From the NCBI RefSeq assembly GCF_921293095.1, contig NC_060251.1:98628566-98692565 (forward strand): a DNA stretch of 64,000 bases. The letters run 5' to 3'. Below are positions 6,951 through 62,824 of this stretch, in pieces (positions within the stretch are counted from its first letter, which is position 1; each line of letters opens with the position of its first letter). The position numbers were made by a program, and so were the translations under genes. The notes under the pieces are model-generated. The model searched no databases. It had not been told where the DNA came from and saw only the letters and a program-made list of their open reading frames with translations. The DNA comes from Ischnura elegans (taxonomy: Eukaryota > Arthropoda > Insecta > Odonata > Coenagrionidae).

Positions 6951-6999
6951 CCTACACTTCGGACCTGAAGTGACTTAGTTTACGAAATAATAGATAATA

Positions 7000-7654: not shown

Positions 7655-7829
7655 TATTTTACCTATTGTTTTAAGTGTTAAAATTTTATTCTTTACCAAA
7701 AATCTACAACCCATGTCATCTTGTAAACAATGACATCATTGCCTAGAGTAAACATTATCTTTTGTTTAAAAGGTGAAATTTAGTGTGATTTAAACAAGAT
7801 ATATGCATTTAAACGCAAAAACAGATAAT

Positions 7830-11955: not shown

Positions 11956-11958
11956 ATA

Positions 11959-12586
11959 GGGTAGTTTCCTTCATCAAAGAATACGAAATGCATTGATTGC
12001 GATTCGTTACCCACCATTAGTGTATTCATAATATACAAATTATTTGGTTTTAGAAATCCCAGTTTAGACGAATGGCAACGGTCAATTTTAACCGCATTTG
12101 AAAAAGGCCAGATTGGCGCCCATGCGATGCCACTCCACATGACGTCACAGGAACCTAGTTTCTATACGAGTAATTAGGAGTTCTACATTGTCTGAGATTA
12201 CCAATGCATGCATGAGGCACAGAGCTCAGGGAAACATGTCTTAATAATCACCTATTAAAACTAAGGTCGGAAAGTTTCCTTCGTTTGATAAGGTATTAAT
12301 AATCCTTATTTAAGCCAAGCGCTACCTGCTAGCAGCCTGCGTCATATCAGCGCTCAAGCCTCGCCCCAAGGTCACCCCACACGCCGACAGCTGGAACCAG
12401 AAATATGTCACACGGACTTTTCCCAGTATTCCTACTTAGCCGTCGCGTTTTCTCGCGCTTGAAATTTTTCACTTTTCGTTTAATCGCGAAAAATAGATAT
12501 CGTCATTCGAAAATCTAAGGGCTTGAAATGCGTACTCCAGGAGTATCTTTCGATTTAGGCAATAAAAAAATAATAGGAAACCACCC
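11959..12586 (+). mobile_element. TA-flanked MITE, family T, copy 2
   Basis: Ends GGGTAGTTTCCTTC and GGAAACCACCC, each bordered by TA (11957-11958, 12587-12588), within CAATA...TATTG. It is roughly 85-90% identical to 7000-7654 by eye. The internal TGACGTCA is kept (12140-12147). A small internal deletion relative to copy 1 removes one of the CTAGCA-rich blocks. Confidence 0.83.
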
Positions 12587-12589
12587 TAT

Positions 12590-21360: not shown

Positions 21361-23150
21361 TGGAGAGGCTTCATAAAGTCAAGCCTGAAGTTGTCAGTTG
21401 TATATTATATTTTTTAAACTTTGTATTTTTATATTATAAACTATCTCCGATTTTCTTTTGGGTGACAATTATTTTAAAAATAACATAAACTTTATTTCGC
21501 GTTAAATAATTCGTTGAACTAACATCCGATCAATAAATTTACAAATGGCACCTGATGATAAGTCCTTAAAGATAGATGGACCACACCACCTTATTGCATA
21601 ATATATAGTGATTCCTTATACATTTGTATTCCTATAAAGCAATTAGCTAGTTCTTTATGACTACCAATCCTTCAATCTTCCGCCCGGCTCTTTCTTCAGA
21701 ATGACTCCAGCTCCTGCATTGGGGAACATGCATGAAATTTGTTCATCATGCTAGTAAGTCTCACTGAATAGACAATTTTCTCACGAGTCCAAATATATAA
21801 GCCAAAACTCTCCTAGTATTCCACAAACGTCATTAAATGCTAATTAAAAATGCTCGAATATCGCTTGAAGTCACGTGACGTGAAACGCCTTCTGACGTCA
21901 TCGGACGGTACGCCATTCACTTCGCTAAGAGAGTAGAGCGGTAGAGCCTTGAATGCAAGATATCGAAGTAAAAATAGCATTTATTTTCGCCAAATTTGCA
22001 TTTGAGCCCCGGCATAAACTGATTTTCTCTCCACTTTCTCAGTCTATCATCAGTGGTTAACGTTCTGTGGTTAATGTAATAAATAAACGAGTGGTGACGT
22101 CACGCTCCGATGACGTCGTGTTTTCAAGCAGCCGATGAAGATTAATTTTTGAAGACATATAACTCAGCTAAAACACATTATTCGTCCGCCAGATTTTCGG
22201 CAAATACATTTGAGGTAGGAACCTTCATATTATAGTACTTGTAAAAAACTGTGCATGTTCCCCATCCTCTGGTCATCGCTGGAACGTATGATTATAAAAA
22301 GCTAACTATAAAGCTAAAAATGATTGCAATCAACAAATCGCAAAGTCTATAGATGGGTTGAGATCCAGTTCTTTATATTAATGACAGAGTTAATTATATC
22401 CTTGCCCGATCTAAAGTGGTTGCACAGTGAAGTCCTGTACCTTCAATGGCTTTGTTTTCAAGCCCAACTGAGTCGAGTATTCAAGGCATGGGTGAAGATA
22501 GCTGAAAAAAGCGTTAATTAAATGCTAATTAAGGCTGCAAAAGATTAATATGCATCTCCGTAACCTGTTTTCACGACGAAAATACCAGAAGAAATAATAC
22601 CCGCTCTTAGTTTTAACAGCAGCCTTTCCCAATAGCCTCACCAAATACGCCTTTTACTGGATACATTTTACTAAAATTTGACTGGTAAGTCAAACGTAAT
22701 ACCGATTTCAATCGATTAAAAAATCTATTATCTATGAAAATAACGTAGCGGGAAATTTCAGGGTCAATGTGACATGCAGTAGCTAATGATATATTTAATG
22801 CAAAGGAAAAGGAATTTATTACTCCCTTCCAGCATAAAATCTGACAACACGATGATACAGTAACTTATCTCCTCATTAGTTGATTCAGAGTGGAATTAAA
22901 ATTGTAGCCTCGCTGGGGGAAGACAGTTGATTGCCACTACTGAGACCTGAGGTGTGTGACGAACACGAAGGTTCTGCAGTATCGGTCTTGGAAATTGCAC
23001 AAGAATTAAACACTTAAGCGATCATATTAAACTAGCTAAATAAATAATACGGCGTTGGAAAGCCGTAATTCATGAGGGAATTCTATCTTTTAATTTTCAT
23101 GAGGCGATGACGATGATACCATTGAAACATCGTTGCAATCCGACACCGCA
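21361..23150. other. No gene recognised; CRE-rich patch at 21870-22120
   Basis: Inside lie CACGTGACGTGAAACG, TCTGACGTCATCGGACGG (about 21890-21910) and, inverted ~200 bp on, GGTGACGTCACGCTCCGATGACGTC. The pair GACGTCATCGG and CCGATGACGTC is an inverted repeat. This may be a degraded MITE with ATF/CREB-like palindromes. Open frames are short and unrecognised. Confidence 0.35.
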
Positions 23151-23465: not shown

Positions 23466-24008
23466 CATCCAATAAACCTCATAAATCTGCATCACGCACC
23501 TTCTCCTCGTCCGTTCTTTCTCCATACGAATGTCCAAAAATTACATCGCCCGTTGGTCGTATCCCATAGAGACAAACAAACCGAGATGTTCTACGGAAAA
23601 AAAATTTAGTAAACAGTATCGGGTATCGTGCTGAAGACTTCTGAGAAAAGCCTAACTCAATTTCAAATCGAAAATCACTCGGTCGATCTCAATTCCTATT
23701 CATCGGACGACCATATCTCCCAATTGTAGCAGTCACGCAACTTGCTTGAACTCGCGACGACTTCAAAGTTTGGCCAAAGATGTTGATCGAGGTAAGCATA
23801 CTTGTATGGCTCATGTTCTTTTCTTAGTAGGCATGTAACTTTACAATCATTTCCGTCATGTTCGCTGAAATGGCTGGAATTAACGGACAGAGTGTATAGA
23901 TGAGACTAAACCCGGGGTAATGATGTGCTCGTAAGGCGACGTGAAAATACAACTAGGATTTTCCAAAACCAATGCCCTACAGTAATAACGTTCACACAGT
24001 TATCAATA

Positions 24009-24667
24009 GGGTGGTTTCCTATTAATTTTTTATTGCGTAAATCGAAAGATTATTACTCCTGGAGTACGTATGTCACGCTTTTAGATTTTTCAATGACGAT
24101 ATCTATTTTTCGCGATTAAGCGAAAGGTGAAAATTTTCAAGCGCGCGAAAACGCGACGGCTAAGTAGGAATGATGGGAAAAGTCCGTGTGACGTATTTAT
24201 GGTTCACCCTGCCGCCTTGAGAAGTGACCTTGGGGCGAGGTTTGAGCGCTGATACGACGCAGGCTGCTAGCAAGTATCCGAGTACCCTGCTAGCAGGTAG
24301 CGTTTGGCTTAAATAAGGATTATTGTTGCCTTATCAAACGAAGGAAACTTTCTGAACGTAGGTATTTTTAATTTGTGATTATTAAGAGATGATTCCCTGA
24401 GCTCTGTGCCTCATGCATGCATTAGTAATCTCAGACAATGTAAAACTCCTAATTACTCGTATAGCATCTAGGTCCCTTTGGCGTCGCGTGGAGTGGCATC
24501 GTATGGGCGCCAATCTGGCCTTTTTCAAATGAGGTTAAAATTTACCATTGCCATTCGTCTGAACTGGGATTTCTAAATCCAAATAATTTGTATATTATGA
24601 ATACACTAATGGTGGGTAAGGAATCGCAATCAATGCATTTCGTTTTCTTTGATGAAGGAAACTCCCC
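24009..24667 (-). mobile_element. TA-flanked MITE, family T, copy 3 (reverse)
   Basis: The left end is GGGTGGTTTCCTATTAATTT after CAATA; the right end is GATGAAGGAAACTCCCC. It runs opposite to copies 1 and 2. The TA on the right is not intact (TTA follows), and the internal TGACGTCA has decayed here to GCGTCGCG. By eye it is similarly diverged from both others. Confidence 0.8.
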
Positions 24668-24669
24668 TT

Positions 24670-31078: not shown

Positions 31079-34000
31079 ATGGTAAGTTTATGACCATATA
31101 CGATAGTTTTGTTCCATTATTAAGATATACTGTACCCTATTTTTGCATTAATCATGTATACTAATCGCTGATAAAACATTTCAGCATAGATTGAAGTCAT
31201 CACAGAAAGAGAAGGTCAAGAAATTCATAGCTTTCACTCAAACCGGTGAAACAACAGCTATTTTCTGTCTTTCACAGAATGATTGGAAGTTAGAATTAGC
31301 GTCTGACAATTACTTTCAGAACCCCGATGTTTACTACAGGGAGCTTAAGGTGTCAGTGGACAAGAAAAAATTGGAGCACCTGTACTCCAGATACAAAGGT
31401 GATCTTTAATATATCCTGAATAAGCTACTTGTTATTTAGTGACTTGCATGTATATTTATTATCAATCTATGTTTGAGTGTCGGTTTTTATAGATCATGCT
31501 GAGCCTGATAAGATCACTGCAGATGGAATCATGCGTTTCCTAGATGATTTAAATCTAAGTCCCGAGTCAAAGTTGGTGCTCATCATTGCTTGGAAATTCC
31601 GAGCTGGGGCGCAATGTGAATTTACTCGTGAAGAATTCATGTCTGGTATGACAGACCTTGGGTAAGTGTTAATGTTTAAATGTTTGTTGTAGTGTTGATT
31701 TTGGAACCACACTCCATTTGTGTCATTTGAAGGCAATAACTTACTGTGTTTTGTTTGAAAATTTCAGCTGTGATAGCATAGAAAAGCTAAAATTAAGGCT
31801 GCCTACTTTAGAAAGTGAAATTAAGGACCAAATGAGGTTTAAAGATTTCTATCATTTCACTTTCAACTATGCTAAAAACCCTGGTCAAAAGGGTTTAGAA
31901 CTCGATATGGCTATAGCCTATTGGAATATAGTCCTACATGGAAAATTTAGGTTTCTTGATTTATGGTGCAAGTTTTTGCAGGTAAGATAACCTAAAATTA
32001 CTTGACTTTAAGGTATAAGTGAAGAATGTACCTATTGGACTTCCATGTGAGTCTTCATTTACTAATTATATTATTTTACAATTGCATGGTATTTTCGTTT
32101 GCAATCTTTATTTTTCACCGTTTCTTTATTTAGTTAATCATTTGCTCTCCTACTTGTCCTCAGCCAAGAATTAGATAATATCTCAGTCGCCATTAGTAAA
32201 AGTTTCCTTATTCCCTGCTTATTATAACGCCCCTATGTTTTCATAATTTCTTTAGCTACTTTGGTGTTGGTTAATATTTAAGTTAGCTTGCTGGTTCGTG
32301 ATAGTTAGCCATTTTAAGTTTGCATTAGTGCCTTTTATATTATTACTTAAAAATGACAGAAGGGATTAATTGTGGGTATTATGCTAAAGGAAAAGCTATT
32401 ATTTAAGAAGTGTGTCCATCTTATCCAGTTATTCTTCTTATTTTCATGTCTATGTTACATTTTCTTCCTATGAATCATAGATTTATGCGTGTCTTTGTTC
32501 ATAGTTCTTTCTATTACTAAAATGCACCTCTTGCATTTTCTTCTTTTTAACATGCACTTAATGTATTGACGCTTGGCTGATTTGTATTTAAGGGTTTTCC
32601 ATTGTAATATGTGTAGATTTCTTAAATATGCACATCTAAAAAATTAGTCAATGTACAATGCTCATAAAGCATCTCATACCTTGGCCTGGAGGGTCATTCC
32701 ACGTCAAATCACCCAGAAATTTTCAAAATGACACCCACCGACTCGGATTTTAATGAAATTTTTGTCACTAGCTACTATCACCTATCTAATGACCCATGTA
32801 AAATATTTCCTCTCTCACTCTCATAGTTTGCAAGATATGAGGAGTCGAAGTTTGAGATGTTGGCTCAGAAGTGGTGCTCGTGGGAGTCAAATTCCAGAGT
32901 GCAGGGCGCAGGGTAAAAATTCATAACTCAGAAACCACATAATATATTTGAATGAAATTTTGACCCCTTGTCTATCCAAGTACATAGCTTCCATAGTAAT
33001 GTCTTTTATTTCCCTTGCATTGTTATGTTAGCCAAAATGATGTCAACAGTTGTTAATTAGCCGATTTTTTTAGCTCAAAAATATAACTTCATATTTTCAG
33101 AATTATCACCAAAAGGCAGAGCAGTTAACTCATCCAATTTTTTTTTAAATTGAAGGTTAATATGTGCTCCAATATACTGTGAAATAAAAATGGTGGTGTT
33201 TTGACTGCCACCATGAGTATTTCAGGTTTTACTTTTTTTCTGCCCCCGTGAGAGGGATTTTGGACACGTACTGTAAGATAATAAGTATAAGTGTATCCAT
33301 ACCTTCATGAGGATATATTTGAAATATTGGTCAGTAAATCTAAGACCAAACATGTAGTCTAGTGAATGTGGCTCTTGTTCATACGATTGTTTTTAATAAC
33401 AGTACTTGGCTTGTGGCAGCTGAGGGGAAAAGAGTTCAAATGGCTCAGAAATGTGAAATGATGCTTTTTTTCCTGGAATTTACCCATTTTTCAAGTGTTT
33501 AGTTTATGGAAAAATTGGTATCAAAATACATTAGACTCTTACTGTGCATTAGAGGATAAATGGAAATACTAATTTAAGTAAAATTATTTAAATAATACAC
33601 TTCAATGTGTTTAAGGCATCTCCTGAACATCTCTGGAGGCTCTCACGGGCAACTAAACGCTTAACAATACCACCACTTCCATCACATGGGGATTTTCCAT
33701 GGCTTGTAGCAAAGAATGTCCATGATGACATTAAGGAGAAATCCTGGTAATGCTTGCAAAGATTGAGAAATTTTTTGCAGTTCTTGTACCGTCCTGCACA
33801 ACCATCACTAAAGTAACTCAATTTTTTGACTAAAGTAAATGTTTCCTTAACAAAGCAAAATATTATTCTTTGGGTTTCATAAAAAAAAGCTACATCATGC
33901 TCCAAATCATCTGACAAGATGCATAAACTGGAAATAATAAGCTGTTTAGTCAGGTGATCTTGAGTATAAATCACAACAGGGTGTACCGTGCAACTATCAC

Positions 34001-37000
34001 TTGTCCAGTGATACCCTTGTGCCTCATCCTGGATAACATATGAGTAGTTCTCATTGAAGTCAAAGAAAACAGCTGCTTCATGGGGTCCAAGATTTTCTTT
34101 CATTTGCTTAAGGTAGTTTGCCTGTACCTTCGTAATAAATGAATGGGGCACCAGTTTTTCCACTCTTTCAATTAAAGTTAATCCGTACTCATCAAATGTC
34201 GCAGTGAAGTTCACCAGTTGATATCTGTCCTTGGAAACCGACTGACTGTATGAAACTTCATCTCTGGGGTCACATTGTTCAAACTTTTTCAGCAGTAAGC
34301 TTTTCAATTTTTCACGTGAAGGACTCTTAGAGCAATGTCGCAGTATACGGTCCCTATTATTTCTAGAGCACACGAAATAACCAATTAGGTCCTGGCTTGT
34401 TTCCTCTATATTACAGGCATTAAGCAGTAGGTTGACATTTTAATGAATTGTGCAAACACACAATGAATGCGTTCCAGGAGATCCTGCTACCACAAACCAT
34501 TTTGGACCTAGGTTGCAGAATTTAGAAAAGCCAATTTTAATTCTGGGGAAGTCAAATTTAAAAGTGGAATACAATTCCTTCAAGTTAGCAAGTAATAATC
34601 TCTTCTGAACATGTACATTTTTGGAGATACTAATGGAATCTTTCTTTCCAGGCATCATTCTGGAGTACTCATCACTTTCATAGAAAGTCCTAACTAATTG
34701 TAATGTTTTATTTTTGCCTTCCCTTTTCTCACTTCAGGAGCAGCTAATTTTCCATTGTCTCTGAAAAGTTCTCTTGCTTGGCAGGCAGTGTACTCACTCA
34801 CATGAAACTCTTCCATTACTTTCTTCCTGCTCCATGAAGTTGGTACCAATGATAACAGATATACCTTTCCTTGATGAGTGCTTGATGTGTCAACTTTTTG
34901 TTTGATTAAGTCTATGAGCACATCCATATCATGAACTTTCTGAAGTAGTTCTTTTGGGAGTTTTGGGTCATCCTTTTATGGAGATAATTCTTTATCAAGA
35001 ACTCTTTAAACTTTCCTTTTAAAATTACTGCATGCTGACTCTACTTTCCTTTTAGCCTAGGTTGACCTTCTGTGAGATGATATGCCATGAAATTTTAAAG
35101 GTGACTCCTCTATATCTTGCAGCGTTCTGTTAAGTAGCTCAGTTGATTTTTCTTGGGATACTGTTGTTTGAAATTTCAAAATACTATCATTGCTGTCTTT
35201 ATCTACTGCTTCAACATGAGAAAGCTCATTTCCAAACCTGGATTGTTTCTGTACTTCCTCCATACATGGCTGGCATATTTTCATTCCTGGCACTAATTTC
35301 CGAAGAGTTGGGATTTTACAGGCCTTTTCTGCAAATTCAAGACTTGCATTTCTCAGTGATTTTGATATTTTCTTCTTGTGGCTCTTAAAAGGATCAAGAC
35401 AATATATTTGGTAGGTTTCATACTTTTTCAGATAGTATATTCTGTGATGTTCGCAGACATTGGATAGGACTTCCCAAGGTACACCACTTCTGAGAGATAA
35501 CAGCTGTTTTTGAAGCATACTCATGCATACTCATGATCTCAATTTTGTTCAGTTGCACCACTGGTGTGTAGCTTTTTTTGAGGCAATCAGATGCAGTTAC
35601 TTTTCCAATGCTGCACAGTTCAATAATTTGCTCATTTTGAAGCATAGTGAAGACACTAACCTTTTTTAATGTTGAAGTTCATGATGAGCAGCTACGCCTA
35701 ACTCATAGCACACACAATTAATGTACTGTTAAATATACACTGATCGTACACACAGAATAAACTTGGACACCCATGGAGCATCTTCACACAAGAAGACTTG
35801 GCAGAAGACTAAAAGTGGTACCCTAGAATCTATTTTGATTTATCATGCCCTCACTGTGATACATTGAAACATTTTATTCTTCCTAATGTAGAGGTTGCAC
35901 TTAATTCTCTTATTCCTTGGGGAGATGGAATAACACTGGAAAGTGAGGCTGAATAGGTGGGATTGTATTACCTTCTCAAGTTTGTCATGTAATACAATCA
36001 TATGTGAGGCAGGGGAGAAGGGCACACAATGTCAGCATTATCTCTCCAAGTGAAATAGAAATTTAATACTCCAGTTGCCATCAAGGAATGTGGATATTGG
36101 TGACAACCTACTGCATATCTATAAGTAATACCATTTGCTCTGCCAGCTCTTCCATCACCAAGGGTCTGGAAGACCGTACTTCTTCTGTGAAAGTGAGGGT
36201 AACTTTGTACAACTCCAGTTCAGCGGGACTCATTTAATAACTTTTTCACAGATCTTAATAAACTTGTACATTGCATGTGCTTATGATGACCACTGTTTTT
36301 TTGGATTAGTGATTTCTAAACACGAGGAAGAACATGATGTGAAAGTGAAATTTATGCACCCATATGGAAAATCCCTATGTGATGGACTTGGTGGTACTGT
36401 TATGCGTCTAGTTGCCCGAGAGAGCCTCCAGAGATGTTCAGGAGATGCCTTAAACACATTGAAGTGTATTATTTAAATAATTTTACTTAAATTAGTATTT
36501 CCATTTATCCTCTAATGCACAGTAAGAGTCTAATGTATTTTGATACCAATTTTTCCATAAACTAAACACTTGAAAAATGGGTAAATTCCAGGAAAAAAAG
36601 CATCATTTCACATTTCTGAGCCATTTGAACTCTTTTCCCCTCAGCTGCCACAAGCCAAGTACTGTTATTAAAAACAATCTTATGAACAAGAGCCACATTC
36701 ACTAGACTACATGTTTGGTCTTAGATTTACTGACCAATATTTCAAATATATCCTCATGAAGGTATGGATACACTTATACTTATTATCTTACAGTACATGT
36801 CCAAAATCCCTCTCACGGGGGCAGAAAAAAAAGTAAAACCTGAAATACTCATGGTGGCAGTCAAAACACCACCATTTTTATTTCACAGTATATTGGAGCA
36901 CATATTAACCTTCAATTTAAAAAAAAATTGAATGAGTTAACTGCTCTGCCTTTTGGTGATAATTCTGAAAATATGAAGTTATGTTTTTGAGCTAAAAAAA

Positions 37001-40000
37001 TCGGCTAATTAACAACTGTTGACATCATTTTGGCTAACATAACAATGCAAGGGGAATAAAAGACATTACTATGGAAGCTATGTACTTGGATAGACAAGGG
37101 GTCAAAATTTCATTCAAATATATTATGTGGTTTCTGAGTTATGAATTTTTACCCTGTGCCCTGCACTCTGGAATTTGACTCCCACGAGCACCACTTCTGA
37201 GCCAACATCTCAAACTTCGACTCCTCATATCTTGCAAACTATGAGAGTGAGAGAGGAAATATTTTACATGGGTCATTAGATAGGTGATAGTAGCTAGTGA
37301 CAAAAATTTCATTAAAATCCGAGTCGGTGGGTGCCATGCCTGGGTGAACTGACATGGAATGACCCTGGAGTCAAACTAGACCCACTTAATTCATTACAAG
37401 TGATTTAATTACATATGGGAGGTGCACTTTCTATGCTAGTTGTACAGTATATCCTTGGCTATGGAGTAAAAGTTTATGTATTTTCCCAAACAATGCTCTA
37501 AGGCAGCATTTTCATGTGTCACCATGTCACAGTTCCAAGACTAAAACTGTAATATGCCTGAAAAGCCACCAAAAATCTATTGTTTTAGGGATTTTTGTTA
37601 CCCTTATTTTTCAAAGCACTAAGTGTGCAAATGCCAAGGATCTTGATTTGAGTTCTGATATAGGCAAAAGCTTTTTTTTCTGTGGAATTTTCTTACTTAG
37701 GAGGCACTTCATTGACTTCGCAGTTCTCCACTGGTTAGGTGTTTTTCTGGAATTTGTATATTGTGTTGGAATTTTGTCAAAATCTTTTTATTACATTATA
37801 AATTTTTCTTTCGATTAGTCAACTATGTTGGGGGCCTTAACTTGGTCTGAAATGTTTATTTCCAGTTGCAAAAGCATTTGCGCTTTCCCACACATCGGAG
37901 TCCTTTGACAATCTCTGATATTTGTGAGAGATTCTAGACGTAAACCAATTCCGTGGAAGCTTTGGATAAATTCCGAGATCTTATTGATAGCTTAGGATTC
38001 CTCCTGATTTAAAGAAGGTTTTGAAGTATTATGGCACCTTACAATCGATAAACTCTTTTGTCTAATAGGTAACCTTGAAAACTACCATTTGGCAAGAAGT
38101 GAATTAGGTTTTACATCCCTTGCAAATGGTATCGTTTAACTTCATTTGTGACGCTTCTAATTTAAACTGCCCAAGTTGGTAGAAAGAGAAACCACCGTAA
38201 ACTATCATTAATAAAGCCCCATTTATGGAACAGATTATTCTGATATCAGAGGAAGGCTCAGCATTGCTTCAAATTGATGGTTGCCGGGGTAGACAAGCAT
38301 ATTTTTAATACTGCATGGGAATATTGTGATCAATTAAAATTTGATAGCCAGCTCTTCATTATCAACAATCATCAATCATATGACTGATTTGACGCAGCTC
38401 TCAACTACATAACCTGCCAGTTAATCCTTTTACTGATACTTAATTCATCTTCTTTACATCCTTCATCACCTGCTTTATGAATTTCATGCAAGGCTTTCCT
38501 CTGCCATTCTTCCCTTTCAAATGTCCTTCAATGATAATTTCATTGGACCTTCATTTCTCTTGATGTGGCCAATTCAATTGTCTTCTGACCAAGGTTTACA
38601 AAAGACTTCTCTCCTACTTTTCTTGGAATTTCCAGATTACTCACATGATCTATCCATTTGTTCCTCATTGTTCTTCTATCAAACCTCATTTTGAAAATGT
38701 TCAAACTTGATTTCTTCACTGCTGTCATCGTCCATGTCGCACTACCATGCAGAAGTATACTCCAAACGCATGTCCTAATAAATTGCTTCCTAACTTCAAA
38801 GCTTTATGTTACCAGCAGCTAGGAGACTCCTCTGTTTGAGGAATGCCCTCTTGGCTTAGACCATACTGGTGACTATTCAGTTCTTGCTCTGCCCATCCTT
38901 GGCCACTCGGCTACCCAAGTAGTAGAAGGTACCTCCCAAGTTGCCCAAGTTTATAGTTTCCTAGTTGCAGGCTGGCCTTTGCCTCTCTTAGGATTGTGGG
39001 CTTTGCATTCCAATCCACATTATGAAAAGCCTTTTCTAAGTCCACAAATTCAATAAATGTAGGTTTGTTTCCCATTCTTTTCTCAATAAGCTGCGTCAAT
39101 TTCATATACATAATGCTTCTGTGTGCCTTTTTTTCCTAAATCTGAAATTATCTTACTCCATAAACTCTCCTGCCTTCCATTCTAGTTCTTATGTAGATGA
39201 TTTTTGTTATCTTTGACCCAGGAGTCATTCGGCTTATCTCCACATTTCTCTACTCTTCTTTTTGAGAATAATATAGATGGTGTTTGTCTCAAAGTCCTTT
39301 GGTATGATTCCTGTTCTGTTGTTACATGTTGCAGATGATTTTATAGAGCTGAGTTGATGTCTTTCGCCATATATTATTAATAAGCTCTGCAGGAATGTCT
39401 TCAATTCCAGTTGTTTTATTCATCAGCTTTACGTTTAATGCAGCGTCAAAGTCAGATCTTAAGATTGAAGCTCTTCCCATATTATCCTTTTCTGCTTCAC
39501 TTTTCTCTGTATTAATATGCAGTGCAAGATTATTTCCATTACATAACTCCTCCTGATACTACTTCCATCTCTTTAATTTTCAATCAGGAGATCTCCAATC
39601 TTGCTCTTAATTGCATTGCATCTTTTGCTCTGCTCCTTGAATTGGTTCCTCAGTATGCTATAGACAGCTTTTGCATTTCCACCTGAGGGGTTATTCTGAA
39701 TATCTTTGCTGATATTCTTTGTCCACTTTTCTCAAGCTTTCGTTGCTTTCAAAGTATTTTGTACCTTATTTTCTTGTAGTTAAGTTGCCCTCCTTCAGTT
39801 TTTGGATTCTTGTGCTTCCTTTCTTCACTGACAATTCTTGTGAGTTCTGAGACTGTGATCCATGGATTTTTCGAGGCAGCTTTTTTCTCTCAAGAAGTTC
39901 TTTTGAGGCCTCTTTTAGTCCACTTTTAATGTTTTTCCAGCTATCTTCAACTGATTTCTTTGTAATATAAAATTTCATTTTACTCTGTATTGCTTCTTTA

Positions 40001-43000
40001 AATGCCAGCTGATGTTAAGCTTCCTTCAATTTTTCTACCTGCTCTACTTTTTTCACTGCTCTCCAAACTTCGCCAAGATTTATTCAATTTGAATTTTTTT
40101 CATATTTCCTGGCATTTTCCTTTTGTATCTTCTTCAGGTATTATTTTTAAATAATGTAATAACAGCCACTAGCTTGTATTCAATAGTGAATTCTAGTATC
40201 AATTCAATCTTTCTCCTCTTTAATTTTGTTTGCCTCGTCCATATTCCCCAGTTATTCTTCTATCTTGACCTTCTCTGATGTCAGTATTCTAATCTCCTAA
40301 AATTATAAGATTTTCTTCCCTTCTTCTTTGTTTGATTACTTCCATGATGTCTGCAGATATGTTTACTACCTTTTCATCTTCATAGTCTTTGTTAGTAATG
40401 TAAACCTATACCACTATATTATCAATTGATTTGGTCTGGATCTTAGCAATGATTATGCTTTAGTTATACTGTAGATAGCTTTTCACGTGCATTCTAGCAC
40501 TCATCCCAAATTCCACATTGCCATTTACAGATGCAATGTGTATTAACCTGTAGCTTACATTCCAAAAGACTTCCTCTTCTGGCCACTTCATTTTGAGTAC
40601 TCTTAGCATGCAAAATGAAAGTTTATTCTTTCTATATCCACCTTCAGATTTTAGTCTAATGCAGGTTCAGAGATGTCGTATGTTTGACATTCTTCTTCTT
40701 CTTGTCCTTAAAATCTCATCACTTTTGACCAATGTGTCTTCAGGTAGACCCTGCCAGGAGATCTGAATGAGGGACTAGTTTACCTCCAGAATATTCTAGT
40801 TGAGAGAATGCAGTCATGTCTGTTATGAAAAATTGGGTAAAGTTGCTGTGACTCTTTAAAGTATACCGGGACTAGCCGCGGTGATAACTTTTATGGGAGT
40901 CACCCGCAATGCACAATCCTGTGAAAGATCCACAAAGAAAAAATCATCCGCCTTGACCGGGATTCGAACCCGGATCTACCGATTTCCGGTCGAGTGCTTT
41001 AGCCAGTTAAGCTACCGAGGCGTCATTCTCCCCTGCGGAAATTTGTGGACACTACCGGACAAACAATATCCACAAATATCCACAGGGAAGAATGATGCCT
41101 TGGTAGCTTAACTGGCTAAAGCACTCGACCGGAAATCGGGAGATCCGGGTTCGAATCCCGGTCAAGGCGGATGATTTTTTCTTTGTGGATCTTTCGCACA
41201 TAGCTGTGACCCTTTGGAATAATAATGTGGTGGTTTCCCCTTGCCTGTTCCTACATCACATTATTACTGCCGTTCCAGCCGTTTAACACAAAATTTGCTT
41301 AACACGACACTTTTTAGGAACACATTTATAGTGTTAAGTGAGGAGTACCTCTATCTCAATTTTTTTCCAAAAAAATAATTAGTAAGAGAGAGCTATAAAT
41401 CATTAATTCTAATACTAGTGAAGTATTCATGTGAATAGTTAGTTGAGAGCTCTCCTCTACCTAAGATTCCCACTGTCTTTTCTCTTCCATCCATTTATCC
41501 AATATCCCATCCCTCCTCTCCTTTACACTCCTCATCCCCAAGGCTGTTATGTATCTATGGAGTCGTATGTTGGAGTGTACTATGTGCAGCGAGGCCACTC
41601 ACACTAAGAACTGATTTCGGGGATATGAACTCCACGGTCTTATCATGTTTAGAAGAGGGAAGTGCTCCAAAAGTCTTAACGTATAAAATTCACGTTTTGC
41701 ATTGCACTTGTTTTTTTTTTGTTTGCACTGAACTCTGTTTACTGCCTTTGTTTGCAGGTTAGAGTACATGGCAGTTGGGATCAAACACAGTCTCTCTTCA
41801 GGAAAGCCTTGATACATACTTTCACACAAAACACTCACACAAGCTAAACTTACGGGAAAATTAGCTCCACTAAGCTCTTGGAGATCATAATAGCTCTATT
41901 AGTGATCATCTCCACATATATGCATCTTGACCTGCTCTATGAGAGCTGATTCTCCTCGAAGTTTAGGCTGTGTGAATGAGTATCAAGGCTTTCGGTTGAA
42001 AGGCTGCGTTTGGTCCCTACCTCCACGTGCTCCTTCCCCACAAACCAAAGCAGTGAACCCAGGTTATTGCAAAATAATGAATTTAATATATTATGGCTTT
42101 TGCAGTGATTCCTTATTCCAATCATGCAAAGAAGTTGCATTTACCACCACTAAGAAGGACCCTTCGGTTGGTAGCCAAACATTCAATCTATTTGCTGTTG
42201 TTATTTTGATATTCCCTAAGTTTTTTGGAGAACCCTCATTAATATTTTGCGTAATGGAAAGTGTAATTAGGTATATTTCATTCGAATTATACCCGTAGAA
42301 TTTCATATATTTACCGTAGGTGAGTAAAATGAAGCTAATCCTTCACTGTGCATGCTTGATGCAAATTCAGATTCAACACTATCAGTTAAATGCTCTTTTG
42401 CATTTCAGTATATCTAGTGAATGTCTCTATAATTTGTGTAATGATTGTGTTTGAAAAAATAGCCATTATTTGTATTCCCATTTTGTTTGTTTTATTTTAG
42501 AATAAGAGTGTCATTAAATGTGTTGTTACTTGAAAAATCCAGTACATTTTACTGTGATTGCATTTCTAATTATAGCTGTATATTATAGATATCCAGGCCC
42601 TTGTTTTATCCACTAATATTTTTAGAGTATACTAATATTCAATATTTCAAATCTATGAAATACTCTATCATTTTACTCTCCTATGTAACTAGGTTGGTTA
42701 ATTCTTTGTTCAACGATAGCATGGAAGATGCAAAATGCAAGTACCTATTAACGTTTTGAGTTCTAATTACTTTCTTAAAAATTAACTGGACATGTTTTAC
42801 CTTGTTTTAATAAAATGTTGGGAAGTTCAGTATAATGAGCGCTCCTATTGGCTGGAAAATCACTCATTATATATTTCTTTGTTTCCTAAGGAAAAAGATG
42901 AAAACCCTCAATTCCCTTATTCAACTGCATGAACTGGTGAAGAGATATCGTTAAACTAATTTGACACAAATTAGGCTGGGAGCTGCTAGTCACTTGAAGG

Positions 43001-52293: not shown

Positions 52294-54073
52294 TTATGCC
52301 CATCTGAAGTAGAAGTATGTCAGCTCGTAGCATTTAGGTTGTGAGTTGTAGCAGTGCAGCATTTGGCTGTGATACCAGTGACACAGTGATTTAAGCTCTG
52401 AAAAGTACACACTTGCGACCACTGCACCTTTTCCATTATGACCATGAGTATCTATGAGGAGCACCTGTTGAAAAAAATGTGCATATTTCTACATTAGCCA
52501 GGATTATGGATATCAATTCTAATATGTACTACTTTGGAACATAATTGGTGATTCCTATAAAAAATTTTTTTAAAAACTATTCTAGTACATAGTTCAGATA
52601 GGTTTTCATAGAGCCCCTGCAAATTATTCTGGCCATCTTCCCTCCCATCATGGACTTCCCTCTTCAATTTACAATAAGGCCTAACGTCTTTCAATCCATC
52701 TATGTTTATATAATCTTTACCCTACCCCATTTACAGCTAAAATCGTGAACTCCCCCATCCCAAGGTTTAAAGAGTGTGACCTCATGTAATGTTAAGATAA
52801 TAAGTGTGTTTTGTTAGCGAAGGAGACATAATTTTCTATTAATTATCAAGAAGCATATTTTCCGTACTCATGCCTCAAGAAAAGTGGTGACGGTAGCCAA
52901 GATATTTGTGATCTAACCTTCAATATACATTGATGAATTTCTATGAGAAAAAATTTCCCTGAACAAGGAATCAAATCACTGCAGTGACCCGGAATGCCAA
53001 AGTTCTGTGGTTTGAGCAGGCAAGTGTATGTACTATCCGGGCTTGTGAATTCCCATGGCCATTATAGTATTGAAGCTCATAGTACTATAGATGGTAGGCC
53101 CTTGCAGTCCATCAATGATGGCAATGCGAGGGAGAAAGGACTTCAAAGAAGCCGCAACTGGTTGAGATCCCCAAAGCTGCACTTGGTGGCAATGTGTAAT
53201 TTTACGAGCCTACTGCATGTACGGCTTCGAAGTTTGCAAGAATTGTCATACATACCTTATTCTGATTATCCTGAAACACCCACAAGACGCTGTGATTCCC
53301 TGCAATAAGGATGACGTACAACTCAGGGTTATATGGAGGTTGTACACTCTCCCAATCTTTTATCCCATCGACTAAATTGTTGAATAATGTATCTCCGAGA
53401 TCCATTAAATAGATAGAAGTTTGCTGAAATAAAAAACTTCTCTATGATTGAAAAAAAGGAGTATGAAGAGGAAATGTTTAAAATCAATCAACTTTGATTA
53501 TAGGTACCCATTCTGTTAGATCTTTTATTTCAGGTCCTATAGCTGATATTGACTCTGGTATATTCAAATTTATTGCCTTTATTTGGTTTTCTTTTCTGAA
53601 ACTTTTATAAAGTTCATTCCCTGCAAGAAATGAGTTTAATAGCATGGCATAATTAGTTTTTATATTTTTTTCAGTTGCCAAATATAGGGGCTTATCTTAT
53701 GTTCACCTACAAGCATAGAGAAATAACAAGAAAAAAATTGCATAGGTTACCTTTCCTAATAGAATTTTTCAGCAATTGTATAAGGATAAACTGAAAGGGA
53801 CTGTTTTCCTCAAATTCAATGCTCCAGTCGGCCAATTCATGCAATGTTTGAGCTACTAGCAGTATTATAACAGTGCAAGCGTTACTCCCTGAAAGTATGG
53901 TAATTGCAAATACTCGTAGTGAAAGCAATCCTCATGAGGAATACATTTTCCAATCAAACCATACCTAGTGATTTTTCACCAATTCTTTCCTGGGTAAAAT
54001 CTTCAGGAAACCACCAAATATGCACTGAGTCTTCATGGGCGACAATCAATGGATTTTTCAATTCGCAATCCAT
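52294..54073 (-). CDS. Uncharacterised protein, cysteine-protease-like; complete, five exons
   Basis: Exons on the - strand: 54073-53965, 53888-53751, 53620-53508, 53423-53256 and 52464-52294. They join in frame at GT-AG sites to 232 codons plus TAA. The ATG has A at -3 and G at +4, with an in-frame stop upstream. The protein begins MDCELKNPLIVAHEDSVHIW; exon 2 opens with GSNACTVIILLVAQTLHELA, giving Cys41 at a helix start as in papain-fold active sites. Exon 3 has GNELYKSF; exon 4 PELYVILIAGNHSVLWVFQD, a likely beta-strand pair; exon 5 VLLIDTHGHNGKGAVVA, with Asp181-x-His183. Cys early and Asp-x-His late is the order in C76-type deubiquitinases. I recall similar uncharacterised NACT...D-H proteins in other animals but no name. 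The exon 3 donor (TGG|GTACC) is weak. Catalysis is inference. Confidence 0.75.
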
Positions 54074-54579
54074 TTTTAAAAATTATTGATATATTTGGTT
54101 GAGGTATATTCGAGCAGAAATTCAATCGCTATTGATAAGCACTTAAACAGTTGGCACCAAACGGGTATAAAAATCGATTATAAATTTAAGGATTTTATAA
54201 TATTGTCAAATGTTGATCAATTCAACCAACAATCATGTAAGAGTGATTTTATGAGCAGTTGTTCATCTTTTAACACAGCTGACAAGTTGGAAAATTTTTT
54301 CCTGCTTTTTAAACCCATTTAGGTACGAAAATCATACCTTCGTAATGCCTTACGCTTCAACTGAAAACTCTCAAGTTCCTCTGTTGAAAGCTTGAAATCT
54401 TGAAATTGTGGTGTTGATAATTTATGACCACGTGATCGGTAATATTGCTTTTAATACCAAATGCTTTTAAAAATAACTTTCTCGATTTTATTATTTCTAA
54501 ATGCTGTTAATTCTTGGTGGATATGAAAAAATAGAAATAGAATTAATTTGGTTTTATTCAAGAAAATGCGCCAAACGTC

Positions 54580-54706
54580 ATGACGTCATCACGGCGAGTA
54601 GACTTGTAGGTGAGGGGGGGAGAAATTCGCGGCGAAGCGGGGTCGAGCCGCTACCCCGGCCACCATGGCGTGGCAATCGCGTGACGTCAGGATAACAGCC
54701 AATCGG
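54580..54706 (+). promoter_or_regulatory. Left inverted repeat with CRE and CCAAT sites, upstream of the 52294-54073 gene
   Basis: CpG-rich block in AT-rich DNA: TGACGTCA at 54581-54588 and 54682-54689, GCCAATCGG at 54698-54706, and a second GCCAAT a few bases on. Relative to the - strand gene that starts at 54073, CCAAT is distal and the CRE palindrome proximal, a normal promoter order, about 500 bp from its ATG. Confidence 0.6.
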
Positions 54707-55281
54707 AATTGACTGCCAATGTCGTCTGCATATATTGCTGTATTCACGTATTACTTATTATTTTTTCTTATTTCCTTTAACCAGCGCGAATTTAGGGACA
54801 GGATTTTGTAGGGATCTTATAAGGATAGGGGTATTACTGCTTCAAATAAGTAAAAAAATCCGATTACGCTTCAAAATCCTTTATTTTGAGCTGGTGTCTG
54901 TACATGAAAAATCGTTATTACAACAGAAATTATTCTTTAACAAGCAGGACAGGAGTCCACAAAATTCACACGTCAAGCGGATAAGGATTAGTTTGTAAGA
55001 ATTAATTGGAACGAAACTCCCACGTACCACTCGTACGTTCTACCAGTCTAAACTAACATTGTAAAAAGTTAGGAAAGCTCAAATCAATAAACATGGGTTG
55101 CAACCAACATACACATTAAAATAATATTTATACATTGAAAATCTAGTCATTATATTAACAAATAAGCTTCCATCATAACAATTAATGTACAAAATTTTAT
55201 TGTAAATATCAGGCTATATACCGTAATGTGTACTACAGTATAATGTCCTACGTTTGATGCAATATAATTAAATTAGAAGTT

Positions 55282-55652
55282 GAAACGAAAACCAAATACT
55301 GTTTCACAAACTTTTTATTTGCTATCAAGACAAATTGTCTTGGTAATGATGTTGAAACTAGTTGATAGCATTAGTAAAATAAGAGATTGCAATATTTCCA
55401 CTGAGTTTTATTATGACACTACGTACCTGTTCCGTCGTTACAAACAACGTTATCAAGTGTGATCAAGCAACACCTGATAATGTCGTTTGTAATGACGAAA
55501 TGTTAGTGTCATAATAAAAGTAGGTGAAAATATTGCAATGTCTTATTTTACTAATATTAAGAACTTCCACCATATCGTGCCCAACATCATACAAGATAGT
55601 TGATACCAAATAAAAAGTTTTTGGAACAGTACTTGGTTTTTGTTTCACCATG
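55282..55652. repeat. Foldback element, family A, copy 3 (longest)
   Basis: The whole 370 bp folds. The outer arms read AACCAAATACTGTTTCACAA on the left and, inverted, AACCAAGTACTGTTCCAAAA, then CTTTTTATTTG, TATCAA, TTAGTAAAATAAGA and TTGCAATATTT. The centre is a long hairpin around TTATCAAGTGTGATCAAGCAACACCTGATAATG. Copies 1 and 2 keep only inner parts, so this copy defines the family ends. Confidence 0.85.
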
Positions 55653-56383
55653 AATATTTCATCATTCTACTAAGTAACGCCCAAATCAGTTGAGTTTAAA
55701 TGAGAAGGCTTCAGACATATTGGTAAGGGTGGAAATCAAATTGGAAATGGGAAGAATTCACTCAGGCAGATGATTCTCGGTAGCCTACTGAACCCGGTCG
55801 GCTACAGATGATGTTCGGTTGTCAACCAAATCGAGATTGTTACTGACGATTTTTAGTTGCCTACCAAACATGGTAAGATGTTTCAAAAAGCATATAGCCT
55901 ACTGTAACCGGTTGGAAAAATTTTCAGCTGCAGTTATCCATTCATATCTCAAAGTGCATTCGTATCAATGAAAAGTAATAAAGTGAATCTTTCCTATTTC
56001 CAATTTGGTTTCCACATACACTATTATGGCTGAATCTCTCAAATGTACTTATCATGCATCAAACTTAGGAGATTATACTGCACTGTGCAGTGTAGAGTAA
56101 GATGAACAGAAAACCACTACTAATCCATGGTATCTCATTCCAGTTTTTAATCCATATTGCACAAAATTAGTAATCAAATCAAAATTTCAAAACACAGGAG
56201 AAATTACTGTAGAGAAAGGGATGTTATTACATTTCACTTGAATTGAGGTGACTTTTGGAGTTGAAGTAAAGCCAAGGTACAAAACATATTATTATGAAAA
56301 TATCTTACCATTGTCAATAATGTCATATGATTTAAGACTCCCTTACAAATTCGACTGTGCTTTATTGTTAGGATTATGTACAT

Positions 56384-56613
56384 ATGCAGTAAAACCTCTA
56401 TGCAGTGAACCTCTTTACATCATAAACCTCCACACTTCATACCACCCCTGCGGTCAGTTTTACATGTAAATTTATAGGCAAACCTCTTTATCTCATAAAA
56501 CCTCCACTTATCATACCAAGGAGATACTCCCGAGACAGCCTAACTACCTCCAAACATCAAATTGCCCAAATTTTGGTCCCCTCCATTACGATGTAAAGAG
56601 GTTTTACTGTATA
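56384..56613. mobile_element. Tc1/pogo-type MITE with CAGTAAAACCTC ends
   Basis: TATGCAGTAAAACCTCTATG at the left; GATGTAAAGAGGTTTTACTGTATA at the right. The ends are inverted and bordered by TA-rich sequence. CAGTAAAACCTC ends are of the pogo/Tigger style. A further AACCTCTTT...TCATAAA block is repeated inside (56410 and 56480). Confidence 0.75.
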
Positions 56614-57084
56614 ATTGAGGATCTTAGAAACCAAGAAAGATAAGTGCAATTAATTACCAAGAATTATCAGCTATTATCTAAAAAAATTGCACTAGTCCCC
56701 CTAGGCTTCTATGGTCCTCATTTGTTATGTAAAATGAATGACTAAATGAATTAATCTAAAAAATCTTTACACGTGAGAATACAACTCAAAGCAAATTAGC
56801 AGTAGGAACACTCGTGTATTTAAAAATTTTGACTGCAGTAAATTTTCAACAGTCTGACTGAACTATTAGCATTTCTTTACTACCTCCTTTAGGCAAGTTT
56901 CATTTGAGATATGAAGTTATAATTTTCACATTTATGCTGACAAATAGATGAGATTCACTTGTCTAGCAATTCATTTCTTCCCACGATAATATCTCCCTTG
57001 ATAAATGCAGTTATACTGATTAAATAATTCATATTCCCCCAACATCAATAAGGACATAGGTATTTACTTCCTAACCATAAATAC

Positions 57085-57540
57085 CAAGGGCAGGAAACAG
57101 TATAATCTCATCTTCTGAAATCCATCACTTAGAAAACCAGATTATCAATGCACTATATAATAAAATGGAAGTTGCTACAATATTTTTCGATTTCTCAAAA
57201 GTTTTTAACACTGTGGACCACCAATTGATACTCAATAAACTTGACTTGATGGTTTTTGTGTCATAGCTAATTTTGATTGAAACCTACTTGTCGGACCAAA
57301 TTCAATTTGTCATTACCTCAGGAAATGGTGTAACTTTCATTTGCCTGGGTACAGGCCTAAAGCAAGTAGTTCCATTAGGCTCCTTCCCTGTGCCTATCCT
57401 ATCACTTTTACACATAAATGATCATATAAATAGTTTTCTACAAATAAATGGTTCCAATCCATTCCCTATGCTGTTGACACCAATATGTATATTGTTCTCA
57501 CAGCAACAATAATTTTGGAGAATTGAAAGAAAAATGCAAA
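57085..57540 (+). mobile_element. LINE reverse-transcriptase fragment
   Basis: Frames on the + strand show MEVATIFFDFSKVFNTVDHQ (first aspartate region), then LIETYLSDQIQFVITSGNGV, VVPLGSFPVPILSLLHINDH (from the PQGS.LGP.LF..YINDL motif) and, in another frame, YAVDTNMYIVL, corresponding to the YADDT catalytic box with A-V-D in place of A-D-D. Frame changes and stops show it is dead. It belongs to the CR1/jockey group and lies nested in the P-like relic, opposite in orientation. Confidence 0.8.
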
Positions 57541-58269
57541 AAGTGAGTCATACTTTCTCTACCTATCTCATTGAATACATTGGAGTTCCTCGTCTAACAA
57601 TAAGACAATGGCCATTTTTATAGATCAAAAAAAGAAGCATTTAGGCTATGAATTTTTTAAAAACATGATACCCTTTACTGTCCTTTGTTCAAAAAGTTGG
57701 CTGTATTACCACTGCCATGCAAAAATTAGAGGTTTTGGTACTCATTGTCTTTAAGTAATGGTTATTTTATTAAAGTTGGTAGCAATAACTGTAACTATAC
57801 TGTTTTCACTAATATTTCTCATATCTTGCTCACTAAGGGTGAGGCCTTAAGACAAAGTTTCATTACACTTCCCTATAAGACAGAGAAAAGAATGTCTCAT
57901 AAGATACAAAGAAATAATATCTCCTTCATCTTATACAGAAAACAGCATGTTTACATATTCCCATCGTTGATTGTTGAAATAAATCAGGCCATTATATGTA
58001 CCGAATAATTTTGTAAGGTGTGCTAAGAATGTTGGCTATGTTGTGTAATCTGACTGATGTGTTCTATTGAATCTTGGTGCATGAGTAATTAAACAGACTA
58101 AATGAGTAACAGGGAAAGATACTTTCCAAAAAACCATACCACACAACTTTGAAAACATCAGGAGAGGTACAGGCTAATGCTTGGTCAGAGAAATGCAATT
58201 TGATAAATAAAATATCTGACATAATATAGAAATACCCACTATAGAGACTGCACAGAATTGGCGAATCAC

Positions 58270-59475
58270 AAATATATCAACTTTTTCAATACCTTCTTCC
58301 TAAAATTCCAGATGCTGACATTTATCATGCAAGGGGCCACAAGATTTCCATTCGAGTTCTTCTATTGGGCACTTCCATTAAAGCTGCAAAACTGCTTTAT
58401 GAATTGAACGATTTCTGCAGTCACACTCACACCATCAATCCACCCTGCAATAGACAGTAAAAATAACATGGATGTCTCCCTTACTAAATTCATCTATTTA
58501 CAGTTTCTCATATCTATATGAAATCATACTCACCTAACCGAACAAAAATGTCCAAATGGAGAAGACCGTAATCGACAGAATACATGGGCGGCAAGGCTCC
58601 CTTTCATTTCCTCTATTCACCTAGGATTATGAGCAGAGGTGGATATCTTGGGGAAGTGAACGATATTCCCAGTGAGTCTTCTACTCAGATTCACAGTCTC
58701 CTCATCGTGGGTCTATTTTCCAACTCTTGTAATAGCTACACCACCAACTGTCATCTACAACAAATGTATAATTAATTATGGTTATTTACATAATAATGAC
58801 AATTTTGAAATATTTGCTAATGTATATAAATTATAAATAACGTAGATAATTACCTCTTCTTTATTGTCATATTCCATGAACATGTTTCGTGAGCACTTCA
58901 GGAGATGTGGAGGGTCATCGATGGTGAACATTTTTTCACCCGCAAATCTGAAATAAAGATAGGATATCTTTGCCAAAGTGTTGGAGGAATAGAAAGGACT
59001 ATCTTCAAAGGGATTACTCATCACGCCAGCTTCCCTAATATAATTATCTTATAGTGAATGACTGTCTCTCGCATGGAAGAAAATAATGACCTGATAGTAC
59101 TTGAGTCCCCACCCTTTGCACTTGCATTTACCCCGTCATAACACCATTTACAGCACATATATAGTATGACACTAATGAAAACAATCCACAGATACTACCA
59201 GAACATAAGAATATAATACGCTAAGTACGATATGTCACATAAAAACAGATTGTTTCATTAATTTTGAAAGTGAATTGGAAAAACAGGGATAAACAGCGGA
59301 ACCGCCGCAGTCACCTACTGGCTTTCAGTGCATTAATTGCCAACTTATACTATAGGATTCTTTCACTTTGTACTTACAGATGTTCATTCCGAGGACATGA
59401 ATGCAATTTGATAGGGCTATCAGGAGTTTTCCGCGCGCCGTATCCAAAAGCATGACAACGTTGAGACGAAGGCAT
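58270..59475 (-). pseudogene. THAP/P-element transposase remnant
   Basis: Exon 1 (59475-59378) reads MPSSQRCHAFGYGARKTPDS, PIKLHSCPRNEHL: the start of a THAP zinc finger (C..FGC...KLHSFPRNEHL) with Tyr in place of the second Cys. It ends at a GTAAGT donor. The next piece (58947-58854) reads FAGEKMFTIDDPPHLLKCSR, the DPPHLLK..RN motif of P transposases. Farther on are RRLTGNIVHFPK, then VTAEIVQFIKQFCSFNGS and NGNLVAPCMINVSIWNF, resembling TAEFI...LFDSFNGS and NGKPL...S.H..FW in the family. The second half of the THAP finger is missing and frames between pieces contain stops. Splicing exon 1 to 58947 and 58754 would keep the frame for a 77-residue product, which may be chance. Confidence 0.65.
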
Positions 59476-59525
59476 GTTTAGATTCAAACGATTACAAACG
59501 GTTTGCTGTTGTCTGCTAGTCGCTG

Positions 59526-59649
59526 CCGATTGGCTGTTACCCTGACGTCACGCGATTGCCACGCCACGGTGGCCGGGGTAGCGGCTCGACCCCGCTTCGC
59601 CGCGAATTTCTCCCCCCCTCACCTACAAGTCTACTCGCCGTGACGTCAT
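59526..59649 (-). promoter_or_regulatory. Right inverted repeat with CRE and CCAAT sites, upstream of PELP1
   Basis: Inverse copy of 54580-54706. CCGATTGGC lies at 59526-59534, TGACGTCA at 59543-59550 and 59641-59648, the last ~95 bp before the PELP1 ATG. It also lies 51 bp upstream of the THAP-like ATG on the other strand, so it sits in a divergent arrangement. CCAAT plus CRE in a CpG-rich block is a plausible TATA-less promoter. Confidence 0.62.
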
Positions 59650-59742: not shown

Positions 59743-60474
59743 ATGGATAATTTAATAGATTTGTTTCATAGCGTTTCTGTGTCACCATGGCGCGACAAGT
59801 ATTTGAGTGATTTTTTATGTGGATGTTCTGAGCACCAAGCGTTTATTGGCCGTGTAGGTGTTTAGTTGGTAAAAATGCTTTGTTAAATGACATTAACCCT
59901 GAATACGCTTTTTAATAGCATAAGCTATTCTTTCATAGAACCCTCCTAAGTTGGCGCAGGTTGCCGCAGATATAAATGCTAAACTTAACAGCGCAACGAA
60001 CAGGTAGGTGTACTATCGTGATAGCCGACCCTTGTAACTTGAAAACTGAAGTCACAGCTCTGTTTGGTATCAATTCCTTCTCACCGTTACAGTCCTACTT
60101 GTACTCGGCATCGCTTGATTTCTTTGTAGGACCGAAGGATTGTTCCTGCTCAAAACATTCTTGACGCAATGCCCTGATGAGATATTTTGTCAGAATGCCT
60201 TTTCCTGGGTGTCGCAAGCCTTAATTTCTGCGGAAGGGAAATCAAATGAGTCAAATACTCGAAAAATCTCACCAGCTATGCCCTTAACCGTTTTAAGTAA
60301 GTGCGTTTGTGTTGAACGGTCTGATTTTTCTTTTATGATTTGTCTTTTATTAAATCGTCTTCACGTATTTCAGGGGATATTATCGAATTATCTGGCCAGT
60401 TTCCTACCGTTGTGAAGCAGTTGTTACCTGTCCTTTCAAAACTGTTACGGCAGTTAACGGGACACCAAATTCAG
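59743..60474 (+). CDS. PELP1: PELP1 / RIX1-domain protein, 5' exons (continues past the window)
   Basis: Exons 59743-59853, 59939-60003, 60130-60296 and 60374-60474 join in frame at GT-AG sites and encode ~148 residues. The start is MDNLIDLFHSVSVSPWRDKY. The match to vertebrate PELP1 is in the RIX1 domain: INAKLNSATNRTEGLFLLKT, FLTQCPDEIFCQNAFSWVSQ, then across an intron VLRDIIELSGQFPTVVKQLL against VLRDLLRYAAQLPAL. PELP1 is the scaffold of the nucleolar complex with WDR18 and TEX10 needed for pre-60S ribosome maturation and ITS2 processing. The last exon seen ends CAG|GTATTG at phase 0, and no later exon is recognisable up to 64000, so the next intron exceeds 3.5 kb. The donor of exon 1 was chosen (CGT|GTAGGT) because it keeps phase; TAG|GTGTTT would not. 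Confidence 0.85.
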
Positions 60475-62735: not shown

Positions 62736-62742
62736 GAATGAT

Positions 62743-62818
62743 GCCTCGGTGGGTTAACTGGCAAAAGCACTCGACTGGAAATCGGGGTACATATCTGGGT
62801 TTGAATCCTGGTCAAGGC
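62743..62818 (+). other. tRNA-like repeat, third copy (single)
   Basis: GCCTCGGTGGGTTAACTGGC, then AAAGCACTCGACTGGAAATC and GGGTTTGAATCCTGGTCAAG match the cores at 40950 and 41097. It is flanked by TCCACAAATATCCACAGCG before and GATGATTTTTTCTTTG-like sequence after. There is a 4-base insertion before the T arm. This copy is not palindromic, so it shows the basic unit of the family. Confidence 0.65.
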
Positions 62819-62824
62819 GAATGA

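Follow-up and report, generated by a model that had tools for sequence, protein, structure and literature searches.

What separates the two divergent genes near one end of a 64,000-nucleotide stretch of Ischnura elegans DNA (contig NC_060251.1, positions 98,628,566 to 98,692,565; hereafter the window), and do the near-identical, CpG-rich sequences that face these genes serve as their promoters? The original prediction for this locus was that a relic of a P-like transposon is lodged within a head-to-head gene pair and that its ends now drive, or help to drive, both genes. We find the first half of this proposal probable. At a rough probability of 0.6, the interval holds a transposon of the cut-and-paste kind and probable P-superfamily origin, whose arms are 116 bp long and CpG-rich and whose target-site duplication measures 7 bp, or possibly 8 or 9 bp. 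It would have inserted into a cAMP response element (CRE, TGACGTCA) about 100 bp ahead of the coding start of a gene that we take to be PELP1. The second half, the use of the ends as promoters, is a weaker proposition.

Two near-identical inverted arms bound a 5,053-bp element

54583-54589, no strand: left target-site duplication, ACGTCAT on the 7-bp parse; lies in the host CRE TGACGTCA (54581-54588) and extends one base past it
54590-54705, plus strand: left terminal inverted arm, beginning CACGGCG, with its inner TGACGTCA at 54682 and CCAAT at 54699
59527-59642, minus strand: right terminal inverted arm, with its inner TGACGTCA at 59543 and CCAAT, as ATTGG, at 59529
59643-59649, no strand: right target-site duplication, ACGTCAT on the 7-bp parse; the TG before it completes a TGACGTCA at 59641-59648

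When the two ends are read symmetrically, the element spans 54590-59642 (5,053 bp) and is bounded by inverted arms that agree at 114 of 116 bases. Both mismatches are A/G differences, one of them a CpG change, and a looser extension of the arms gives 126 bp at 96% identity. The identity is uniform along the arm, including the tip and a run of seven G (G7) retained in both copies, and it ends abruptly, with no clear residual similarity beyond the arms. The arms also stand out in composition, since the G+C content of the 118-bp arm blocks is 0.64 and 0.65 compared to 0.37 for the window, and their CpG observed/expected ratios are 1.22 and 1.26 compared to 0.73 for the window and 0.22 for the middle of the interior (56081-58289). 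These measurements confirm the near-identical, CpG-rich inverted pair of ~125 bp that had been reported from the sequence. Each copy had also been credited with a CCAAT box and two TGACGTCA sites; the CCAAT box is present in both arms, but only the inner TGACGTCA sites at 54682 and 59543 are certain to be arm-borne, the outer sites at 54581 and 59641 being host sequence at the flanks, except possibly for the first two bases of the right one.

Further matches to the arms within the window were scraps of 12-18 bp, and a second arm pair was not found. Exact copies of the arm tips were found neither in viral_contigs (21-mer) nor in prokaryote genome_contigs (22-mer), although such searches are little informative for a eukaryote, and Rfam and ARAGORN identified three tRNAs only in the window, none within the arms. 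Two independent solo repeats can be ruled out because the target duplication spans the arm pair.

The element interrupts a CRE and leaves one on each side

Symmetric ends give an exact 7-bp duplication, ACGTCAT, on both sides of the element; a chance 7-mer match arose at random pairs of window positions in 17 of 200,000 trials. The string common to both flanks is TGACGTCAT, such that shortening the right end by one base yields an exact 8-bp duplication (GACGTCAT) and shortening it by two bases yields an exact 9-bp duplication (TGACGTCAT), while moving the two ends in step produces only an exact 5 bp or a duplication of 9 or 11 bp that contains a mismatch. The 8-bp duplication that had been anticipated is thus possible with a trimmed right end, whereas the symmetric parse gives 7 bp. 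Removing one copy of the duplication gives the inferred pre-insertion site, ...CGTCATGACGTCAT^TAAAAAATCG..., in which the target contained a full CRE (TGACGTCA) and the start codons of the two genes lay ~609 bp apart. The bidirectional promoter that the original prediction places between the genes at that stage is hypothetical.

The left outer CRE (54581-54588) is wholly host sequence. The right outer CRE (59641-59648) is either all duplicated host sequence, in the 9-bp reading, or the terminal TG of the element followed by ACGTCA of the duplication, in the 7-bp reading; under either reading, each gene retains a CRE on its own side. Duplication of the target CRE left each gene with a CRE nearest to it, and the insertion may have been tolerated for this reason.

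The window contains ten copies of TGACGTCA compared to 0.5-1.0 expected, with four of the ten at the arms and flanks of the element. Active targeting of a CRE by an element that itself carries one was considered and set aside, the coincidence being about 1 in 100: an 8-mer shared with an arm occurs at 508 of 58,829 other would-be target positions in the window (0.9%) and at 162 of 13,965 CpG-rich positions. Away from the element, two TGACGTCA sites lie 202 bp apart in a CpG-rich stretch (21893-22102, observed/expected about 1.3) without a listed arm match, which is possibly a candidate promoter. Two more sites, at 7182 and 12140, are carried by two of the three copies (6999-7658, 11958-12590, and 24005-24668; 86-87% alike) of a ~665-bp repeat.

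A putative P transposase-like exon lies between the arms

59378-59475, minus strand: possible transposase gene start, a THAP-lookalike; runs to a GT donor; lies 51 bp inward of the right arm; read by eye, without support from Pfam, the PDB or shuffles
58854-58947, minus strand: P-transposase-like exon with DDPPHLLKCSRN; AG/GT bounds from a reading of the splice signals; in the best open reading frame piece against P transposase
58290-58755, minus strand: possible further transposase remnants with stops; two pieces, approximate bounds

We compared 2,503 six-frame pieces of the window, each of at least 18 residues, with Drosophila P transposase, the letters of which were confirmed over 569 residues by PDB entry 6p5a. 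In phmmer, the piece at 58785-59048 ranked first (E 0.19, compared to E 5 for the runner-up), and a tblastn search with P transposase picked the same place (E 0.085). The DPPHLLK motif predicted for the interior is real and lies in this piece, in the minus-strand exon 58947-58854, whose score of 55 was reached by 0 of 3,000 shuffles. In contrast, the predicted THAP motif turned out to be a 33-residue lookalike, which 65 of 3,000 shuffles matched in score and which aligns to P transposase outside its THAP domain. Among the remaining pieces, the second exon piece aligns at the expected place in P transposase (384-414), with 180 of 3,000 shuffles as good, and the third aligns elsewhere in the protein, with 2,094 of 3,000 shuffles as good.

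Taken together, the near-perfect arms, the exact flanking duplication, the location of the window's best P transposase match between the arms, and the CpG contrast between arms and mid-interior argue for a P-like transposon relic between the divergent genes, close to the PELP1 start codon and in CRE-bearing sequence. Originally, the arms would most likely have worked for the element itself, as its ends and as the promoter of its transposase; we propose the latter role because the possible transposase start lies so close to the right arm.

Near-identical ends enclose a decayed interior

55236-56080, no strand: nested palindromic repeats resembling miniature inverted-repeat transposable elements (MITEs); three arm pairs 83-90% alike
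57147-57620, plus strand: decayed reverse transcriptase fragment of the long interspersed nuclear element (LINE) type; RVT_1 E 0.003, 17.7 bits compared to a curated cut-off of 29.6

This copy of the element is dead, with a broken transposase and other repeats lodged within it; the LINE fragment and the nested palindromic repeats occupy the left part of the interior. Just inside the left arm, the CpG observed/expected ratio is 1.04 over 529 bp; at 58290-59525 it is 0.68. A further MITE-like repeat inside the element, at 56381-56615, is presumably of the Pogo type.

How did such similar arms come to enclose such a degraded interior? Among recent movement, gene conversion, and selection, we rank recent mobilisation first and give it close to even odds. 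A decayed, repeat-laden, non-autonomous copy would have been moved by transposase made elsewhere, leaving young arms and a young duplication around an old interior, with no host role. Consistent with this account, the arms are near-identical, the duplication is exact, and the nested inverted repeats are more divergent than the arms (21 differences in 152 positions compared to 2 in 116; Fisher p 0.0003), although this test is indicative only because the three nested repeats (I2, I4, and I6) were hand-picked from 25 listed and were possibly imperfect from the start. Comparably, copies of Galileo (PMC4168063) and of P-MITEs (PMC1562414) keep their ends and duplications while their interiors are broken or unrelated. 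However, recent mobilisation requires a source of transposase and sibling copies, and the window supplied no second arm pair.

The element probably belongs to the P superfamily

Several observations weigh against this assignment. The transposase homology is weak (E 0.085-0.19), and only one of the four tested transposase pieces beat all shuffles. Pfam detected no transposase in the interior pieces given to it, the one match being at chance level (PPTA, E 0.14); the Drosophila P transposase stretch itself scores TNP-like_GBD at 1.2e-18. A PDB search with the 88-residue piece returned no P transposase, only MCPv3 (E 0.73), and the same search with the THAP-lookalike likewise returned no P transposase. 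The duplication is ambiguous in length (7 versus 8 or 9 bp), and its sequence, ACGTCAT, is unlike the target preferences of 1360 (GTTNAAC) or Galileo (GTANTAC). Finally, the terminus CACGG fits the YARNG consensus (quoted in PMC2820524) at 4 of 5 positions and so misses it. Since the zebrafish element Pdre2, which is accepted as P-like, starts with CATAC and is also off this consensus, we treated the consensus as not strict and filed the element only as probable P superfamily. The weak E-values and the lack of a Pfam or PDB transposase match likewise led us to call the relic probably P-superfamily rather than proven.

The weak E-values and the missing Pfam and PDB matches would also fit a reading that we consider rather unlikely, in which the arms belong to another superfamily and the P-like pieces either match by chance or derive from a different relic nested in the element. 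The main rival of this kind is a Mutator-like element; these elements have long arms, duplications near 9 bp, and a MULE transposase, and trimming the right end here by two bases would give an exact 9-bp duplication. However, a 7- or 8-bp duplication also fits the P superfamily, the best P transposase match of the 64 kb sits between the arms and runs inward from the right one, and the interior pieces scanned, which are part of the interior, gave no Mutator-type Pfam match.

Terminal inverted repeats combined with a 7- or 8-bp duplication characterize the P superfamily, and the element has both (116-bp arms; 7 bp with symmetric ends, with 8 or 9 bp also exact). Members also encode a P-related transposase, which has an N-terminal THAP domain and an RNase H domain with a GTP-binding insertion. 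Within the superfamily, the duplication is 8 bp for the P element and 7 bp for 1360/Hoppel (PMC3276498), and the element resembles each in this respect, but their targets (GTCCGGAC and GTTNAAC, respectively; PMC3276498) are unlike ACGTCAT. P insertions are common near promoters, and the P element has 31-bp arms (PMC7776569) compared to 116 bp here. Galileo, a P-superfamily element of Drosophila, offers a closer likeness in its long terminal inverted arms, its 7-bp duplications (8 bp in three copies), and its defective copies, 33 of 191 of which have other elements inside (PMC4168063). The arms of the nearly complete Galileo copy measure 757-765 bp, and Galileo has no introns (PMC10990002). Long arms and a 7-bp duplication fit Galileo; the target (GTANTAC for Galileo), the apparently intron-interrupted transposase, and the make-up of the arms here (116 bp, CpG-rich, with CRE and CCAAT) do not. 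The literature looked at yielded no terminal sequences of Galileo or 1360. The combination of 116-bp CpG-rich arms, a 7-bp duplication on the symmetric reading, and apparent introns is not identical to any of the descriptions compared, and the element would add a long-armed, probably P-superfamily member with CpG-rich ends to the elements in those descriptions.

The right arm may act as a proximal promoter for PELP1

53965-54073, minus strand: first coding exon of the left-hand gene; donor by eye
59743-59853, plus strand: first coding exon of the right-hand PELP1/RIX1-like gene; donor by eye; hand-joined exons match RIX1 at E 5.5e-5 and 23.4 bits, compared to a cut-off of 27.4

The left-hand gene had no significant Pfam match, and the right-hand gene is presumably PELP1, a name that we assume from the sub-cut-off RIX1 match and a resemblance to PELP1. 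The left-hand gene starts at 54073 on the minus strand, 516 bp from the element, and the PELP1 ATG at 59743 lies 100 bp past the end of the right arm, in agreement with the spacings of ~500 and ~95 bp that had been reported from the sequence. The CpG observed/expected ratio over the 98 bp preceding PELP1 is 1.79.

In the original prediction, use of the arms as promoters of both genes could account for their similarity. An alternative, which we regard as unlikely, is that the insertion is old and that gene conversion between the arms re-homogenised them. The uniform identity, its abrupt end, and the lack of clear residual similarity beyond the arms are consistent with conversion, but it would have to act between short arms 4.8 kb apart.

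Less likely still is that both host genes took over the arms as promoters, with selection keeping the arms alike while the interior decays. The CRE and CCAAT in each CpG-rich arm, the proximity of the right arm to the PELP1 ATG, the CpG-poor mid-interior with its broken transposase, and the excess of differences in the three chosen nested repeats all point in this direction. However, the identity spans the whole arm, beyond the binding sites, whereas selection on separate promoters would be expected to protect binding sites but neither the tip nor the spacer, nor to fix a G run at one length in the two copies; such selection does not alone hold two copies identical. Because the arms match to the tip and through the G7 run, recent mobilisation in trans or gene conversion fits better than promoter selection. 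We found no positive evidence that promoter selection caused the arm identity.

The positions of upstream ATGs bear on whether transcription could start within the arms. Between the right arm and the PELP1 ATG are two out-of-frame ATGs (59682 and 59693), whose frames overlap the PELP1 start and whose contexts read as weaker, while the right arm itself contains no ATG in the PELP1 direction. On the left, six minus-strand ATGs lie between the element and the gene (four at 54236-54335 and two in the target site), and one more lies inside the left arm. Upstream ATGs following the arms on both sides do not favour starts inside the arms and count against promoter capture. For PELP1, the two upstream ATGs make a start downstream of them likelier, in which case the right arm would be a proximal promoter and not the start itself. 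Use of the right arm as a predicted proximal promoter block for PELP1 is plausible, while putative use of the left arm by the left-hand gene is weakly plausible; promoter capture as such is a possible reading suggested by motifs and position.

The boldest version is very improbable in our estimation: insertion into the CRE would have left a complete CRE facing each gene and donated two near-identical CRE/CCAAT arms, converting one promoter region into two matched promoters with both arms in use. If the arms are promoters, a single insertion would have divided one shared upstream region between two matched promoters and preserved an important host site on either side; if they are inert, the element is one more dead transposon of the usual sort close to the start of a gene.

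There are partial precedents for regulatory use of transposon sequences. Izanagi, which is P-like and non-autonomous and lies in the promoter of medaka dmrt1bY, likewise contains a nested repeat and supplies a transcription-factor site, but it has an 8-bp duplication and its regulatory role was tested with transgenic lines and chromatin immunoprecipitation (PMC2820524). The terminal repeats of ProtoRAG act as promoters in both directions in reporters, although its transposase is RAG-type and the results concern the element's own genes rather than neighbouring host genes (PMC7481187), and the left end of Bari3 is a promoter (PMC4120734). Titles and abstracts among the matches listed described no transposon that duplicates a CRE or drives a head-to-head gene pair, which is not proof of absence.

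Other features of the window

A second element with inverted arms occupies 32728-37337; its arms are 974 bp long and 98.5% alike, and its broken minus-strand open reading frames contain a 12-letter protein motif. Its tips had no matching flanking duplication of 3-12 bp. The three tRNAs are tRNA-Ser(GGA) genes or copies at 40948-41170 and 62742-62820, two of which are divergent within 223 bp.

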